Part shown: positions 19,546-32,027 of the stretch, in pieces
Layout of the letters: every line of letters starts with the position of its first letter
Position numbering within the stretch: the stretch's first letter is position 1
DNA from: an uncultured Rubrobacteraceae bacterium
GTDB lineage: Bacteria; Actinomycetota; Rubrobacteria; Rubrobacterales; Rubrobacteraceae
Length of the DNA stretch: 32,027 nucleotides
Reading direction: 5' to 3'
Assembly (NCBI GenBank): GCA_902806085.1
Contig: CADCVH010000066.1
Location: 1-32,027, forward strand
Made by a program: the position numbers and the translations under genes
The notes under the pieces: generated by a model
Database searches by the model: none
Told to the model about the DNA's origin: nothing
Seen by the model: only the letters and a program-made list of their open reading frames with translations

Positions 19546-20430
19546 CTAGTCCCGGCGAACCGGGGAGACGGCGAACACCCTCGTGGGGCCTCCGCTTCCG
19601 CCCTCGTGCTTGGGGCCGCCGACGATGATGGTCGCACCGGAAGCGTCGACCTCGCCCAGGTTCGCTATGTTCTCCAGGCCGTACTTCCCGGCCGGCAGCG
19701 CCGTGCGATGGACCTCGATCTCCGTGGACACGCCGCGGTCCAGGCTAATGGTATCAACCCCGAGGCCTACGATGCTCCGCCTGCGGACGAGGAACTCTCC
19801 GGCCTCTGGCGTGAAGGCGGGGAAGTGCAGCGTCCCCGAGGCGTCGGCGTTGAGGAACGAATCGGGGTCGGAGAGACGCTCCTCCCAGCCCGAGTACATG
19901 GCGACGAACGCGCCCTCGGGCAGCCGGCCGTGCCGCCTCTCCCACGCGCGGATGTCGTCCACCGTGACCCCGGCGTCCTCGTCGGAGGCCGCCCTCCTGG
20001 AGATGTCTACCACGGCCAGGGGCGCGAAGAAGTCCTCCGCCGGGAGCTGATCGGTGGTCAACCCGCCGTTGGATGCATGGAACGGCGCGTCGATGTGCGT
20101 GCCGATGTGCTCCCCGTAACGAAGAGCATAGGAGTTGAGGCCGTCTTCCTCGACGGTGGTGTTCACCTCTATCTCTAACGGGTCCTGCCCAGGGTACACC
20201 GGGAAATTCGGCCCGTGGGTGTGCGTGAGGTCCCGGACCTCGAACGGGCCGCCCAGCGCGCCCACGGCAGCGGTCTGCGTGGCGCCGGCCGGTTGCGTGG
20301 CGGCGCTCTGCGTCCGCGCGCAGCCGGCCGGCGCGACTATGCCGGCGATCGCCGCCGCTCCCGCCAAACCGAAGAATTTACGTCTGCTGAGGGATGCTCC
20401 GGCCCGATCCATCATCCGCGGTGAACACAT
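19546..20430 (-). CDS. Cyclase family protein (kynurenine formamidase-like), Tat lipoprotein
   Basis: A 294-residue protein of the PF04199 cyclase/kynurenine-formamidase family, with ATG 20430 behind AGGAGAG. The N-terminus is an export signal: SRRKFFGLAGAAAIAGIVAPAGC (15-37), with a twin-arginine motif and a lipobox (APAG-Cys37). The enzyme probably sits outside the cell, attached to the membrane. The catalytic metal site HIGTHIDAPFH (108-118) is intact, preceded by LTHTHGPNFPVYPG. VDTISLDRG and the C-terminal ANLGEVDASGATIIVGGP are also family blocks. Cytosolic relatives hydrolyse formylkynurenine or cyclic esters and amides. An exported version suggests action on an environmental substrate. 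An 11-bp repeat box lies 250 bases upstream. Confidence 0.9.
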   Translation of the reverse strand: MCSPRMMDRAGASLSRRKFFGLAGAAAIAGIVAPAGCARTQSAATQPAGATQTAAVGALGGPFEVRDLTHTHGPNFPVYPGQDPLEIEVNTTVEEDGLNSYALRYGEHIGTHIDAPFHASNGGLTTDQLPAEDFFAPLAVVDISRRAASDEDAGVTVDDIRAWERRHGRLPEGAFVAMYSGWEERLSDPDSFLNADASGTLHFPAFTPEAGEFLVRRRSIVGLGVDTISLDRGVSTEIEVHRTALPAGKYGLENIANLGEVDASGATIIVGGPKHEGGSGGPTRVFAVSPVRRD

Positions 20431-20997
20431 ACTCTCTCCTCTTGTCTAGGGTTGCGCAAGTACACGAAACGTCTGTCTTTCCATGCCAGCGCCGCTTCGC
20501 TGACGCGCTCTACACCTCCGGCTTGTTGCCCACTACTCCCATCGCCCGAGGACTTGCTCGGGTTCTCTCCATCGATTACCTCCTATCCGACGGTTACTCA
20601 CGCGGACCGACCTCCTGCGGGAACTCTTGCCACCGGCGTCCGAAAGCACCCGTCCCAGTCGAACTCCTGAGCCTCCGCCGGACACGCTACCGCCGCAGCG
20701 TGACGAGGGTGTGAAGAGGACGTGACGGGCGAAGGGCGCACCGGTACCCTGCCGGCGAGGCGAGTGGGCATTGGGCTTATCGGTTCGTAGCTTCGCGGAT
20801 GGGGACCTGCATCTATTCGCGGCTCAAGAGCTGCTCCGCTTCCGAGGTCGCGGCGATGATCGGGGGTTGGTGCGCCACTCGAGGGACAAATTCGGCCATA
20901 AATAGCGCACCGTATGACCGCAGCCGAGCCTGGCAATAACCGCGAAAGTCCCCGCGTCCCTCCGACTGGCTGGAAAGCCCCGGAAGCGGCATTTTCC
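20431..20997. other. Non-coding stretch upstream of the cyclase
   Basis: No gene was recognised. It contains the minus-strand repeat box at 20684-20729, and its right part leads into a transposase relic. Frames on both strands are short and unlike known proteins. Confidence 0.4.
20684..20729 (-). promoter_or_regulatory. 11-bp tandem repeat promoter box (cyclase)
   Basis: Read on the minus strand: CCCGTCACGTC, CTCTTCACACC and CTCGTCACGCT (20729 down to 20697), then 7 bases (GCGGCGG) and TAGCGT (20689-20684). Unit length, order and the 7-base gap equal those before the aldolase and the sulfotransferase. It points to the cyclase lipoprotein 254 bases downstream. Confidence 0.6.
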
Positions 20998-23905: not shown

Positions 23906-23951
23906 CTCGCAACGCCCCCGTCACGCCCCCGTCACGCCAGGGCGGTACCCT
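23906..23951 (+). promoter_or_regulatory. 11-bp tandem repeat promoter box (aldolase)
   Basis: CCCGTCACGCC occurs at 23917-23927 and 23928-23938, with a weaker third unit (CTCGCAACGCC) at 23906-23916. Seven bases (AGGGCGG) follow, then TACCCT at 23946-23951. The aldolase start is 182 bases on. Spacing resembles sites of OmpR/PhoB-type activators, whose 11-bp repeats abut the -10 box. Confidence 0.65.
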
Positions 23952-24132
23952 TGGCTACGTTGCTCAGGCACGCAGACTCCGGAGGTTTGGCCATCCCGAC
24001 GAGCACGAGATCCGCCCGTTCCCCGTCGGGGCTCCCGGCCGTCCCAAAACTCCCTAGTCGCGAGGCTTCGGGCTTCGGTTCTGGGCCTACGTTTTGCGCA
24101 ACGGACCTGCGGGATGAGGAGAGGAGAGCCGG

Positions 24133-25158
24133 ATGAACCTTCGGATGCTAGAGGAGACCGCAAAGGAGCTCGTCTCGCCGGGGCGGGGACTACTCGCCGC
24201 GGACGAGAGCTTCGGGACCATAGGGAAGCGGTTCGAGGCCGTCGGCATAGAGGCCGGCGAGGAGAATAGGCGGGCCTACAGGGAGATGCTCTTCACGACC
24301 GAGGGCATCGGGGAGTACCTCTCGGGTGTGATCCTCTTCGAGGAGACCCTCGAGCAGAGAGCCTCGGACGGCAGGACGCTGCCGCGGGTGCTCCTCGACC
24401 AGGGCGTCATCCCCGGCATCAAGGTGGACAAGAGCACCGTGCCCATGCCCCTCTCCCCGGACGAAAAGTTCACCCGGGGCCTCGACGGCCTGGACGAGAG
24501 GATGGCCGAGTACAGGGAGACGGGCGCCCGCTTCGCCAAGTGGCGGGCGGTCATCACCATCGGCAACGGGATACCCACGGAGGGCTGCATCGAGGCGAAC
24601 GCCCGCTCGCTAGCACTCTACGCGGCCTTCTGCCAGGAGCACGACCTCGTCCCCATAGTCGAGCCGGAGGTCCTCATAGACGGCGACCACTCCATCGAGG
24701 ACTGCTACGAGACGACCGAGCGGGTGCTGCACGCCACGTTCCAGGCCCTCTACGAGCAGAACGTCGAGTACTCCGGGATGCTCCTCAAGCCGAACATGGT
24801 CATCCCGGGCAAGGAGGCCAAACGGCAGGCGGGCGTGGAAGAGGTGGCCCGGGCCACCGTCGAGTGCCTGCTGAGAACCGTGCCGGCGGCGGTGCCCGGC
24901 ATCGTTTTTCTCTCAGGAGGCCAGGGCGTGACCCAGGCCACGGCCCGTCTAAACGCCATGAACTCCGCGTACGGGGATTCGCCGTGGGAGCTCTCCTTCT
25001 CCTACGCCAGGGCGCTGCAGGAGCCGCCGATGGAGATCTGGAAGGGCCAGACCGGAAACGTCGAAGAGGCGCAGAAGGCTTTCCACCACCGCCTCAAGAT
25101 GAACGGGGCGGCGCGAAGCGGCACCTACTCGGAGGAGATGGAAGGCGAGGCCGCCTAA
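24133..25158 (+). CDS. Class I fructose-bisphosphate aldolase
   Basis: A 341-residue Schiff-base aldolase that splits or forms fructose 1,6-bisphosphate in glycolysis/gluconeogenesis. Landmarks of the animal/plant-type class I family are GRGLLAADES (18-26), VILFEETL, PGIKVDKS, AKWRAVITIG (135-144), VPIVEPEVLIDGDH (173-186) and the Schiff-base Lys219 in GMLLKPNMV. The FLSGGQG phosphate loop and the ALQ-PPMEIWKG C-terminal block follow. ATG 24133 sits behind GGAGAG. It is a single gene with a long leader, preceded by an 11-bp repeat box and followed by a strong hairpin. Phosphoketolase and acetate kinase downstream suggest linked control of sugar-phosphate flow. Confidence 0.95.
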   Translation: MNLRMLEETAKELVSPGRGLLAADESFGTIGKRFEAVGIEAGEENRRAYREMLFTTEGIGEYLSGVILFEETLEQRASDGRTLPRVLLDQGVIPGIKVDKSTVPMPLSPDEKFTRGLDGLDERMAEYRETGARFAKWRAVITIGNGIPTEGCIEANARSLALYAAFCQEHDLVPIVEPEVLIDGDHSIEDCYETTERVLHATFQALYEQNVEYSGMLLKPNMVIPGKEAKRQAGVEEVARATVECLLRTVPAAVPGIVFLSGGQGVTQATARLNAMNSAYGDSPWELSFSYARALQEPPMEIWKGQTGNVEEAQKAFHHRLKMNGAARSGTYSEEMEGEAA

Positions 25159-25510: not shown

Positions 25511-25919
25511 TTTTGGGCGGAGAGCGCCGCGATGCCGTAGGCAGCGTCGTCGGTCGGTCGGACGCCACGCGGGGCCTGACGGACGCCCAACTCCTGAACC
25601 GTGTTCGGAAGGCTAAAGCGCCAGGCCGGCACGAGCAAAGACAACCACCTACCCCTACGCCGGCGTCTTTGCAGGGACGGCCTCCGGCGCCGCGCGCCGA
25701 TGGTAGGCCACGCCGCGGACGAGCAGCGGTACCCCGGGCGTGGGGAACGCCGGAGAAGAGAAGCCGATGAGGAGGACGGGTCCGGGTGCGCGCGGAATGG
25801 AGGTCGGGCGGGACCCTTCCTGAGGCGGTCTTGTCTCGGACGTGGTTCCGGTCGGTCCACCGGATCGCGAACCTGCTCGCGCCTCGGGTGTCCGGGCATC
25901 GTAGCGTTCGAAGGTCCCG
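25511..25919. other. Stretch without a recognisable gene
   Basis: Between the RHS scrap and the sulfotransferase promoter box I see no protein of known type on either strand and no strong repeat. Confidence 0.4.
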
Positions 25920-25965
25920 CCCGTCACGCCCCCGTCACGCCCCCGTCACGCCAGGACGGTAGCCT
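25920..25965 (+). promoter_or_regulatory. 11-bp tandem repeat promoter box (sulfotransferase)
   Basis: Three perfect copies of CCCGTCACGCC lie end to end at 25920-25930, 25931-25941 and 25942-25952. They are followed by 7 bases (AGGACGG) and TAGCCT at 25960-25965. The sulfotransferase ATG is 72 bases further. Best example of the motif in the window. Confidence 0.7.
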
Positions 25966-26037
25966 GGGCCGGTCGTAACCTCCCAGCCGAAGCCGGACGA
26001 TCCGGTGGCATCCGGCGCGACAGAGAAAGGAGGGGCC

Positions 26038-26943
26038 ATGACCGGAAAGATCTCCTGGCCGGAAAAGACCCGCGAGATGCACAACCACCACTTCGACTCG
26101 ACCATCTGGAACGAGCTCGGGTTCCGCGACGACGACGTAGTCATCGCGACCTACGCCAAGTCCGGCACGACCTGGGTGCAGCAGATCACGGCCCAGATGC
26201 TCTTCGGCCCCGACCCCGACTTCGAGGTGGCCGGGATCTCCCCCTGGCTCGACCTGCGCGTCCCCCCGAAGGAGGTGAAGCTGCCGGAGGTCGAGGCGCA
26301 GACGCACCGGCGGGTCCTCAAGACGCACCTCCCCCTGGACGCCCTCGTCTTCTCCCCGAGGGCGAGGTACGTCTACGTCGGGCGCGACGGGCGCGACGTC
26401 TTGTGGAGCCTCTACAACCACCACGCCAAGGCCAACCAATTCTGGTACGAGGCGGTAAACGACACCCCCGGGCGCGTCGGGCCGCCCATCGAGCCGCCCA
26501 CGGGCGACGTCCACAGGTACTTTCGCGAGTGGCTGGAGGGGGACGGCTACCCTTTCTGGCCGTTCTGGGAGAACGTGCGTAGCTGGTGGGGGTTCCGCGG
26601 GCTGCCGAACGTCATGTTTTTGCACTTCGACGACCTCAAGCGCGACATGCAGGGGGAGATGCGCCGCGTCGCTTCGTTCCTCGACATACCCATCGACGGG
26701 ACACGGTGGGAGGAGACGGTCGAGTACTCCTCCTTCGACTGGATGAAGCGGCACGCCGAAAAGAGCGCCCCCCTCGGGGGCATCGCCTGGGAGGGGGGCG
26801 CCCGGACCTTCATCAATCAAGGTACGAACGGCCGCTGGAAGGAGGTGCTCACGCCGGAGGACGTCGCCGGGTACGAGGCGCGGGCCGTACAAGAGCTAGG
26901 GCCCGAATGCGCGCGGTGGTTGGCGACCGGAGGGGAAGTCTAG
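26038..26943 (+). CDS. PAPS-dependent sulfotransferase
   Basis: A 301-residue sulfotransferase (Sulfotransfer_1 fold) that would transfer sulfate from PAPS to a hydroxyl or amine acceptor. The 5'-phosphosulfate loop YAKSGTTWVQQ (39-49), LKTHLPLD (94-101) with the catalytic-base region, the 3'-phosphate motif YVGRDGRDVLWSLYNHH (113-129) and the C-terminal NQGTNGRWKEVLT (the G-x-x-G-x-x-K loop) are all present. ATG 26038 has AAAGGAGGGG. Acceptors in this family range from steroids to glycolipids and cannot be read here. The following gene is an O-methyltransferase 171 bases on, hinting at small-molecule tailoring. It has the best copy of the 11-bp repeat box. Confidence 0.92.
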   Translation: MTGKISWPEKTREMHNHHFDSTIWNELGFRDDDVVIATYAKSGTTWVQQITAQMLFGPDPDFEVAGISPWLDLRVPPKEVKLPEVEAQTHRRVLKTHLPLDALVFSPRARYVYVGRDGRDVLWSLYNHHAKANQFWYEAVNDTPGRVGPPIEPPTGDVHRYFREWLEGDGYPFWPFWENVRSWWGFRGLPNVMFLHFDDLKRDMQGEMRRVASFLDIPIDGTRWEETVEYSSFDWMKRHAEKSAPLGGIAWEGGARTFINQGTNGRWKEVLTPEDVAGYEARAVQELGPECARWLATGGEV

Positions 26944-28146: not shown

Positions 28147-28352
28147 TGGCCGGGAGTCGATCAGCCCGCCGCCGAAGCCGCGACGCCGGGCGCCTCGATC
28201 GCCAGATAGAAAGCTGGTGGCGCGACCGGGGCGACGTTTCGATCAAGCCCGAAGTCGTCGAGAAATTGGTCGACGCGGAACTCGGATCGTTTAACCTGTC
28301 CCGTCTGCCCGAGCAACGCGATGAGGTGGGAAACCGAGGAGAGGCGCGATGA
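28143..28352 (+). CDS. Small hypothetical protein between methyltransferase and acetate kinase
   Basis: A 69-codon frame whose start (GTG 28143 or ATG 28146) overlaps the methyltransferase stop and whose TGA overlaps the acetate-kinase ATG (ATGA). The C-terminal half, DRQIESWWRDRGDVSIKPEVVEKLVDAELGSFNLSRLP, looks coded: acidic and amphipathic, with a helix-like repeat of VV-KLVDAEL. The N-terminus is Arg/Ser rich and less convincing. No family is recognised. Four-base overlaps on both sides favour a real translated gene or a coupling leader for acetate kinase. Confidence 0.5.
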   Translation: MMAGSRSARRRSRDAGRLDRQIESWWRDRGDVSIKPEVVEKLVDAELGSFNLSRLPEQRDEVGNRGEAR

Positions 28353-29614
28353 ATAGGCAAGGGACGGTTCCGAGAGACGAGCGGCTTGGATCCACTTCGG
28401 GGAGGGTGGGAAGCGTTGTGGGCGCCCGGCGTCTTCTCACGATCAACACAGGGTCGTCCAGCCTCAAGGCCGCCCTGTACCGCCTGCGGGAGGGCGCGAC
28501 GGAGGCCCCAGAGCTCCGGGCGGAGGCGAACAGGATCGGGGGCCGGGGCGGCCTGCGCCTTACGGACGCCCGCGGCGAGACCCTCGACGAGCGCCGGGAC
28601 GACCTGCCGGACCACGCCGCCGCGCTCGACGCCCTGCTGGGTCGGCTGCGAGACCGTGGGCTCGACCGGGACGACGTGTTGGCGGCGGTCGGGCACCGGA
28701 TCGTCCACGGCGGGGACCGCCACCGCGAGCCGCAAATGCTCGCCCCCGGGGTCGTCGCAGATCTCCGGTCGCTGGTGCCGCTCGACCCCAACCACCTCCC
28801 CCAGGCGATCGCGGCGATCGAGGCCGTGGCCCGCGCCTACCCGGCGGTCCCGCAGGTGGTTTGCTTCGACACCGCGTTCCACGGCCGGATGCCCCGCGTC
28901 GCGCGGCTCTACGCGCTGCCGCGAGATCTCGCGGAGGAAGGCGTCGTCCGCTACGGTTTCCACGGCCTCTCCTACGAGTACGTGATGGATGAGCTGCGCA
29001 AGGTAGACCGCGAGGCGTACGACGGGCGCGTCGTCGTCGCCCACCTGGGCAACGGCGCGAGCATGGCCGCCGTGAAGGAGGGCGTCGGCGTGGACACGAC
29101 CATGGGGTTCACCCCGACCGGCGGGCTCCTGATGGGGACGCGCAGCGGCGACCTCGACCCGGGCGTGGTTCTCTTCTTGCTGGAGCAGCGGGGCCTGACC
29201 CCGCCCGAGGTGGCCGATCTCGTCAACAAGCGCGCCGGCCTCCTCGGGGTCTCGGGGACGACCTCTGACATGCGCGAGCTGCTGGACCGCGAGGCGAACG
29301 ACCCGCGCGCGGCCGAGGCGGTCGAGCTCTTCTGCTACCAGGCGAAGAAGTTCCTGGGCGCCCTTGCCGCCGCCCTCGGCGGGCTCGACGCCCTCGTCTT
29401 TACGGGAGGCATCGGCGAGCACTCGGCGACCGTGCGAGGGCGCATCTGCGAGGGCCTCGGGTTCCTCGGCGTCAGGCTCGACCCCGAGGCCAACGCGTCC
29501 CACGCGCCGGTCATCTCCGGCGACGATGCCGCGGTGTCCGTCCGCGTCGTGCCCACCGACGAAGACCTGATGGTCGCCCGGCATACAAGAAGGCTAATCG
29601 AGCAGGAACGTTGA
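28349..29614 (+). CDS. ackA: Acetate kinase
   Basis: A 421-residue ASKHA-fold kinase that makes ATP and acetate from acetyl-phosphate. Sequence marks are [16 protein letters not shown] (29-44), [21 protein letters not shown], the [10 protein letters not shown] signature, [27 protein letters not shown] and [17 protein letters not shown]. The family normally begins just before the NTGSSSLK block; here ATG 28349 (good GGAGAG site, stop overlap with the small gene) adds about 27 residues. GTG 28418 is an alternative start giving the usual length. The phosphoketolase gene begins 17 bases downstream, so the two enzymes are made together. Confidence 0.95.
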
Positions 29615-29631
29615 GCAGAGAGGAGCAGAGC

Positions 29632-32027
29632 ATGTACCATTTCGACCCGACCATCTCCAGCGCCGTCGAGGGATCTCCGCCGCCGAGAACGCCGGCCGAG
29701 GGCCCGCTCTCGGCGGAGCAACTCGCCGGGATACACCGCTACTGGCAGGCCGCCAACTACCTCACCGTGGGCCAGATCTACTTGCAGGACAACGCGCTCT
29801 TGCGCGAGCCACTGGATCCTTCGCACATAAAGCCGCGCCTGCTCGGGCACTGGGGCACCTCGCCGGGCCTGAGCTTCGTCTACGCCCACCTCAACCGCCT
29901 GATCCGGCAGCACGACCTCGACGCCATGTTCCTGGCCGGTCCGGGTCACGGCGGGCCGGCCGTCCTGGCGCACGTGTACCTCGAAGGCGCCTACTCCGAG
30001 GTCTACCCTGAGGTCTCGCAAGACGCCGCGGGGATGCGGCGGCTCTTCAGGCAGTTCTCGACGCCGGGCGGCATCCCGAGCCACGTGAGCGTGCCGACGC
30101 CGGGCTCGATCCACGAGGGTGGCGAGCTCGGCTACGTCCTCTCCCACGCCTTCGGCGCCGCCTTCGACAACCCCGACCTCCTCGTCGCCGCGGTGGTCGG
30201 AGACGGCGAGGCCGAGACGGGACCGCTGGAGGGCTCCTGGAAGTCCATCAGCTTCCTCAATCCGGCGCGCGACGGCGCCGTCCTGCCCATCCTGCACCTC
30301 AACGGTTACAAGATCGCCAACCCCACCGTCTTGGGACGCTCCTCCGACGACGAGGTCCGCAAGCTGCTCGAAGGGCACGGCTACGAGGTCCACTTCGTCG
30401 CGGGGGACGACCCGCCCGCGGTACACCAGGCCCTCGCCGCGACGCTGGACGCCTGCCACGAGAGCATCCGGACCATCCAGCACGAGGCGCGCGAAGGGAA
30501 CCCCGCCGCCTCGGGCCGGCCGCGCTGGCCCGTGATCGTGCTGCGCACCCCCAAGGGGTGGACCGGCCCCGCCGAGGTGGGCGGCCTGCCGGTCGAGGGC
30601 ACGTTCCGTTCCCACCAGGTGCCGCTGTCGAACGTCCGGTCCGACCCGGAGCAGCTCGCGATGCTGGAGGAGTGGATGCGCTCCTACGGGCCGGACGAGC
30701 TCTTCGACGAGGGGGGGCGCCTGATCCCCGAGATCGCAGCCCTCGCCCCCGAGGGGGACCGGCGCATGGGCGCGAGCCCGCACGCCAACGGCGGCAGGGT
30801 CCTCGAGGACCTCGACCTGCCCGACTTCCGCGACTACGCGCTCCCGGTCGAGAAGCCCGCCACCGAGCGCCACGAGTCGACCCGCAAGCTGGGCGAGCTT
30901 CTGCGCGACACCTTCTCCCGGAACGCCCGGCAGCGGAACTTCCGGCTCTTCTGCCCGGACGAGGTCAACTCCAACCGCCTGGGCGCCGTCTTCGAGGTCG
31001 AGGACCGCTGTTTCGTCGGCCCGACGATACCGGGCGACGACCACGTCTCCCACGACGGCCGGGTCTTTGAGGTCCTCTCCGAACACCTGTGCGAGGGCTG
31101 GCTCGAGGGCTACCTCCTGACCGGGCGCCACGGGCTCTACGCGACCTACGAGGCCTTCGCCATGGTCTCGGCCTCCATGACCGCCCAGCACACCAAGTGG
31201 CTCGAGGAGGCGATCAACCTCCCCTGGCGCGAGCCCGTGGCGTCCCTGAACGTCCTTCTGTCCTCGACCGCCTGGCGCAACGACCACAACGGCTTCTCCC
31301 ACCAGGGGCCCGGGCTCATCGACGTCATGCTCTCCAAGAGGGGCACCGTCGCGCGCATCTACCTGCCGCCCGACGCCAACACCCTGCTCTCGGTGGCCGA
31401 CCACTGCCTGCGCAGCCGCAACTACGTGAACCTGATCGTCATAGACAAGCAACCCCAACCCCAGTGGCTGGACATGGAGTCGGCGATAGAGCACGCCGCG
31501 CGCGGCGCCTCCGCGTGGGAGTGGGCCTCCAACGTGCCCGAAGGGGAAGAGCCCGACGTCGTGCTCGGTTGCGCCGGCGACGTGCCCACTCTAGAGACCG
31601 TGGCCGCGGCCCAGTGGCTGCGGGAGCACGCGCCCGGTCTCAAGGTGCGCGTCGTGAACGTCGTGGACCTCATGACGCTCTTCCCGCGCGAGTTCCACCC
31701 GCACGGCATGGACGAGAGCCGCTTCGTCGAGCTCTTCACCGCCGGCAAGCCCGTGGTGTTCGCCTTCCACGGCTACCAGAGGGCGCTGCACGAGATCGTG
31801 CACGGCCACGTGCGCCCGGACCGCTTCCACGTTCGCGGCTTCAACGAGCAGGGCACGACGACGACGCCGTTCGACATGGTCGTCCTGAACGGCATGAGCC
31901 GCTACCACCTGGCCGCGGAGGCCCTGAGGCGCTCCGCGGGCCGGGAGAACAGCACCCCGACCCTGATCTCGAAGTGCGAATCGCTCATCGCCCAGGCCAC
32001 GGCCTACTCCAGGGAGCACTTCGAGGA
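29632..32027 (+). CDS. xfp: Phosphoketolase (Xfp type), cut by window end
   Basis: A thiamine-diphosphate enzyme that splits xylulose 5-phosphate and/or fructose 6-phosphate with phosphate into acetyl-phosphate and a shorter sugar phosphate. ATG 29632 follows AGAGGAGCAGAGC. The frame is open for 798 codons to the edge, and the family is about 800 residues, so little is missing. Marks are [16 protein letters not shown] (73-88), [10 protein letters not shown] (101-110), [63 protein letters not shown] (143-204, TPP-binding GDGEAETG at 190-197) and [29 protein letters not shown] and [12 protein letters not shown] lie in the later half. It is directly coupled in position with ackA. Confidence 0.95.

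Follow-up and report, generated by a model that had tools for sequence, protein, structure and literature searches.

A single large AfsR-like protein is the probable activator of about two dozen 11-bp direct-repeat promoters in a Rubrobacteraceae genome

SARPs have been studied mainly as activators of antibiotic clusters in Streptomyces. The "pho boxes" of PhoB/PhoP-type regulators, in E. coli and in Streptomyces, are 11-bp direct repeats close to the -10, and are read by an OmpR-type winged helix. For SARPs, the operator rule is direct repeats 11 bp (or 22 bp) apart, with 8 bp between the 3' repeat and the -10 (PMC10936776). The afs box of AfsR in Streptomyces coelicolor has two 11-bp direct repeats where a good -35 is lacking, the second of them 8 bp away from the -10 (PMC10936776). 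The operator of PimR is made of three heptameric direct repeats (CGGCAAG) with 4-bp spacers, does not overlap the -35, and serves a single antibiotic-cluster target (PMC5930380). Searches of the literature on Rubrobacter SARPs, on a Rubrobacter response regulator with a direct repeat, and on large SARPs in oxidative stress found nothing relevant.

The DNA analyzed here, "the window," is a stretch of 32,027 nucleotides that makes up an entire contig (C66) of an uncultured Rubrobacteraceae genome of 4.41 Mb in 133 contigs. Three of its genes are preceded by repeats of the kind just described (Table 1). At all three sites the 11-bp unit is the heptamer GTCACGC, or a near copy, followed by 4 bp, and the last heptamer lies exactly 8 bp 5' of TAnnnT; the resulting layout, heptamer-4 bp-heptamer-8 bp-TAnnnT, has the spacing of a SARP operator. 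The original prediction spoke of two or three units per site. There are three at each, the outermost aldolase unit and two of the cyclase units being near copies. Its 7-bp spacers are alike only in part once all sites of the genome are compared, the G at -14 alone being strongly kept (22 of 24), and its word "unlinked" is loose for window sites that all fall within 5.3 kb, with other sites on more than a dozen contigs. Within the window, the 20-mer CGTCACGCCCCCGTCACGCC with up to three mismatches has four matches, coming from two of the sites, against 0.06 expected from shuffles, and none of 100 shuffles reached that number.

Table 1. Repeat sites, their target genes in the window, and the candidate regulator cluster (window positions unless a contig is named)
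Feature	Position	Strand	Basis
Sulfotransferase site: CGTCACGCCCC CGTCACGCCCC CGTCACGCC AGGACGG TAGCCT	25922-25965	+	read directly
Three 11-bp units 5' of sulfotransferase gene	25922-25952	+	read directly; PWM score 58.5, top of all sites
GTCACGC heptamers of sulfotransferase site	25923-25929, 25934-25940, 25945-25951	+	read directly
-10-like hexamer TAGCCT, 8 bp past last heptamer	25960-25965	+	read directly; genome-wide spacing 13 vs 0 control
Sulfotransferase gene, start 73 bp past -10	26038-26943	+	Pfam PF00685, E 9.7e-45
Aldolase site: CGCAACGCCCC CGTCACGCCCC CGTCACGCC AGGGCGG TACCCT	23908-23951	+	read directly
Three 11-bp units 5' of aldolase gene, the first a near copy (CGCAACGCCCC)	23908-23938	+	read directly; PWM score 54.7
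-10-like hexamer TACCCT	23946-23951	+	read directly; genome-wide fixed-spacing scan
Class I fructose-bisphosphate aldolase gene, start 182 bp past -10	24133-25158	+	Pfam PF00274, E 4e-136
Cyclase lipoprotein site: CGTCACGTCCT CTTCACACCCT CGTCACGCT GCGGCGG TAGCGT	20727-20684	-	read directly
Three degenerate 11-bp units 5' of cyclase lipoprotein gene	20697-20727	-	read directly; PWM score 49.2
-10-like hexamer TAGCGT	20684-20689	-	read directly; genome-wide fixed-spacing scan
Putative cyclase gene, signal/lipoprotein-like start, 254 bp past -10	19546-20430	-	Pfam PF04199, E 7.2e-39
Large AfsR-like SARP, 1268 aa: OmpR-like DNA-binding domain, BTAD, AAA ATPase, TPR	C104:3506-7312	-	domain matches
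OmpR/PhoB-type response regulator	C104:7845-8540	-	
Partner histidine kinase	C104:8537-9799	-	

About two dozen promoters with the window-type motif are scattered across this genome. The repeat pair of CGTCACGCCCCCGTCACGCC, again with up to three mismatches, gave 39 matches genome-wide, and the pair followed by CGGTAnnnT at fixed spacing gave 13, the cyclase site included; a degenerate form of the pattern gave 24, one of them a register-shifted overlap of another site. The reversed control gave 0 in each case. With two more sites taken from the 39-match scan, and with C38 and C68 sharing one promoter sequence, the outcome is a working set of 24 distinct sequences at 25 places. Please note that these genome-wide counts come from pattern searches, and that the contigs retrieved are a selection.

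The logo of the 24 sites consists of 11-bp units with the core T-C-A-C-G-C, the G at -14, and TAnnnT. Little or no variation is seen at the core T, A, and C or at the TA...T of the -10, most of these being positions that the search pattern favored; the third, upstream repeat is clearly conserved although the pattern did not demand it. Together with the hexamer, the G at -14 forms GnTAnnnT, an extended -10 feature. No TTGACA-like -35 hexamer is present at the usual spacing in the three window sequences or in the logo: the repeats themselves lie over the -35 region, as in SARP operators.

Twenty of the 24 sites lie outside called genes and no more than 300 bp from a same-strand start, compared with 7.5% of random positions (binomial 2.5e-19, with the sites taken as independent). 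Genes were called with a simple GC3-based caller, so single gene starts may be wrong; of the three sites placed "inside" genes, two seem to be there because the gene start was called too far upstream. The prediction of one shared, oriented promoter class, in which an 11-bp direct repeat abuts the -10, is borne out by these counts; scatter inside genes, or a lack of orientation toward starts, is not what the genome scan returned.

In addition to the class I aldolase, sulfotransferase, and cyclase genes of the window, the targets include a glucokinase gene and, behind it, genes for a peroxiredoxin/cold-shock fusion, transketolase, transaldolase-PGI, a HAD-like gene, and a 6-phosphogluconate-dehydrogenase-like gene. 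Redox-type targets elsewhere are OsmC, ferritin-like, AhpC/redoxin, molybdopterin oxidoreductase, and F420H2 quinone reductase genes. Others encode cupins, DoxD, luciferase-like proteins, GMC and FAD oxidoreductases, SDR, alcohol dehydrogenase, ABM, an EF-Ts-like protein, and a CRP-like regulator. Read from these annotations, the theme appears to be redox defense combined with sugar and pentose-phosphate supply, and the "functionally odd" membership first ascribed to the regulon fades, since the family annotations lean to redox and sugar metabolism. No antibiotic biosynthetic cluster was found as a target location, the targets being dispersed redox and sugar genes, and no phosphate genes are among the targets assigned to families.

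Repeated sequences of this kind could also be copies of a spreading element with no regulon behind them, and three groups of sites do have flanks in common: C68:6274, C38:54, the window aldolase, and C68:11287; the window sulfotransferase and a site on C108; and sites on C33 and at C104:356. About 6 of the 24 are promoter copies, leaving roughly 18 to 20 independent sites. Against a spreading element, any two sites share on average 67% identity across the 45-bp motif and 29-31% across the flanks, the placement 5' of genes is correct in all but four cases, and the box before glucokinase is kept in three species despite diverged surroundings. We demoted the mobile repeat on its unrelated flanks, although some sites are true copies, and give it hardly any credence.

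The copies can be followed in some detail. The aldolase promoter with its 5' leader (window 23918-24040) has about 84% identity over some 125 bp to the segment at C68:6274 (L070), which is in turn 100% identical over 127 bp to that at C38:54 (L076). The three precede unrelated genes and are copied promoter-leader segments. Similarly, the sulfotransferase promoter (window 25893-25970) shares 87% identity over 78 bp with the promoter of an FAD oxidoreductase gene at C108:32942 (L079). An ISL3-type transposase gene (L070:9451-11037) lies between two motif sites on C68, and might help to explain the copied segments.

The relatives that carry names belong to the AVDCRST series of uncultured Rubrobacteraceae MAGs. 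G000 is the genome of the window, and G003 and G004 are two genus mates. Before the glucokinase gene of both genus mates the box is kept with a diverged letter (ATCACG) in diverged surroundings; comparison of the sequences marks it as a phylogenetic footprint in three species. The glucokinase gene of G001 is without a box. A homologue of the molybdopterin oxidoreductase lies inside the glucokinase operon in G003, and on another contig, with its own box, in G000. The RTMACG form of the pattern has 19 matches in G000, four in G004, and two in G003, with single matches in two of the other 57 genomes. An exact-pattern scan of named GTDB genomes, a set from which the genome of the window may be missing, gave no match.

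Most likely, the repeats are read by an OmpR-type winged helix. As predicted, the candidate regulator lies outside the window: it is a SARP gene on contig C104, directly downstream of genes for a histidine kinase and a response regulator. The same contig carries the glucokinase gene and a motif-bearing small gene, as well as a glucokinase gene fragment (C104:3099-3301) that is probably a pseudogene. The kinase-response regulator-SARP cluster adjoins motif-bearing genes in G000, G003, and G004, the three genomes with the motif, the SARP gene of G004 running off its contig end.

The C104 protein has the build of a large SARP, with an OmpR-type DNA-binding domain followed by BTAD (PF03704, E 2.1e-16) and a C-terminal half with nucleotide-binding and TPR matches (PF13191, E 1.1e-25; TPR_12). 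When its SARP domain and relatives were used as a profile, AfsR was matched at E 1.5e-9, and EmbR was matched also. In an AlphaFold2 model (pLDDT 83.8), the predicted fold of the domain is that of AfsR and EmbR, AfsR chains being matched at TMt 0.75-0.78. The base contacts of the AfsR recognition helix, T88 and R92, align with Ser66 and Gly70. The lack of the base-contacting Arg92 counts against this SARP as reader, as do the copied sites and the relatedness of the genomes. DNA specificity may differ from that of AfsR, and T88 and R92 are not required for family membership. The residue at the Arg92 position was also tried as a predictor of the heptamer letters, and gave no consistent rule.

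Set beside the described systems, the locus resembles AfsR in its SARP domain with nucleotide-binding and TPR regions, and in repeats that replace the -35 at 8 bp from the -10; it differs in having three repeats of another sequence, about 24 dispersed redox and sugar promoters, and no conserved Arg92. With PimR and the SARP-LAL type it shares three heptamers with 4-bp spacers and a large SARP with an ATP-binding C-terminal half, but the heptamer is GTCACGC, the repeats take the place of the -35, and the targets are many and dispersed. The pho boxes are similar in their 11-bp direct repeats near the -10 and their winged helix, and differ in that no phosphate genes are found among the family-assigned targets and the distribution here follows SARP genes, not the response regulator.

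That distribution was followed through the AfsR-like SARP paralogs of G000 (C53), G003 (C175), G005, G010, and G034, which have GCMACGC boxes nearby with identical spacing. This pattern, defined partly on G000, G005, and G034 and not on G003, G004, and G010, is present in each of the six genomes that hold an AfsR-like SARP of this clade and in 1 of 54 others (60 genomes). The Fisher value for this co-occurrence, 1.4e-7, overstates independence because the MAGs are related to one another and differ in completeness. No SARP paralog of the clade is farther than about 3.5 kb from its nearest box. In the surroundings of 79 SARP loci from GTDB genomes, the 11/8 spacing gave 11 matches, all in Rubrobacteraceae, and 34 other spacings gave four altogether. 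More distant SARPs, mostly of Chloroflexota, are without ACGC-type boxes nearby, and the motif form is therefore limited to Rubrobacteraceae in this sample. Several of the paralog boxes stand 5' of a small gene of the "EExWRRF" type, a relative of the motif-bearing small gene of C104. This small, box-bearing family recurs near AfsR-like SARP genes (L069:438-911, L136:8253-8750, L167:434-811, and L211); its proteins have no Pfam match above the cut-off, and are possibly a dedicated SARP target or partner.

A PhoB-like response regulator had been proposed as the reader. The one on C104 might bind the sites, with the SARP only a neighbor or acting elsewhere: it belongs to the SARP's cluster, which adjoins motif-bearing genes in all three genomes, and so may be what reads the GTCACGC form. 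PhoB-type regulators likewise use 11-bp repeats near the -10, as in the E. coli phoA layout, and in each of the three genomes with the motif the response regulator has a wing Arg where the motif-less orthologs have Trp. However, orthologs with 68-78% identity in G001, G022, G031, and G035 (those of G001 and G022 cut by contig ends) occur with no motif match in their genomes, which are partial, so that absence is no proof. Motif and response regulator thus seem not always to go together, and this distribution led us to demote the response regulator as reader. Moreover, the same layout with a diverged heptamer is found near SARP paralogs that have no kinase or response-regulator gene in the flanks read. 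By PWM, C104 is the only retrieved response-regulator locus with a strong motif site upstream. The original assignment is probably wrong, as the geometry is that of the SARP operator rule (PMC10936776) and the motif tracks SARP genes better; we consider the response regulator an unlikely reader.

Less likely still is another protein of the same genome: the second AfsR-like SARP (C53), which is a 47-49% paralog of the C104 SARP, a short SARP (C51), or one more of the ten OmpR-type response-regulator genes. The box beside C53 is GCCACGG/GCCACGC and not GTCACGC, and in the relatives ATCACG lies beside the C104-type SARP (G003, G004) and GCMACGC beside the C175 SARP (G003). Two nearly identical OmpR-type response regulators of this genome, on C111 (L050) and C73 (L051), represent a recent duplication.

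We consider it likely, judging from sequence, that the repeats are SARP boxes of the large AfsR-like SARP, and that they define a redox and sugar regulon of about 24 promoters that has partly grown by promoter copying. SARP monomers would bind next to one another on the 11-bp repeats, where a -35 element would otherwise stand, and would direct sigma region 4 and RNA polymerase to the -10 with its G at -14. We infer that the C104 SARP binds and activates these sites; its signal may be fed by the adjacent histidine kinase and response regulator. Its physiological role would be to activate redox genes (OsmC, peroxiredoxin, ferritin-like, F420 quinone reductase, and molybdopterin oxidoreductase) along with a sugar/pentose-phosphate arm comprising the glucokinase-transketolase-transaldolase/PGI operon and the aldolase. 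The broader proposal, to which we give an even chance, is that AfsR-like SARPs of Rubrobacteraceae are redox and sugar regulators with a heptamer for each paralog (RTCACGC vs GCMACGC) in the same 11-bp/8-bp geometry, one regulon having reached some two dozen promoters partly by segment copying.

If true, Rubrobacteraceae have a large SARP regulon with dispersed members, and the family can work as a general metabolic regulator. The operators and their paralogous readers would then be natural material for learning how SARPs choose their DNA, and the copied promoters would show one way in which a regulon can grow. As a separate observation, the window closes (28349-32027), downstream of the sulfotransferase gene and an O-methyltransferase gene, with genes for acetate kinase and phosphoketolase, the latter reaching the end of the contig; they are a phosphoketolase pathway pair.
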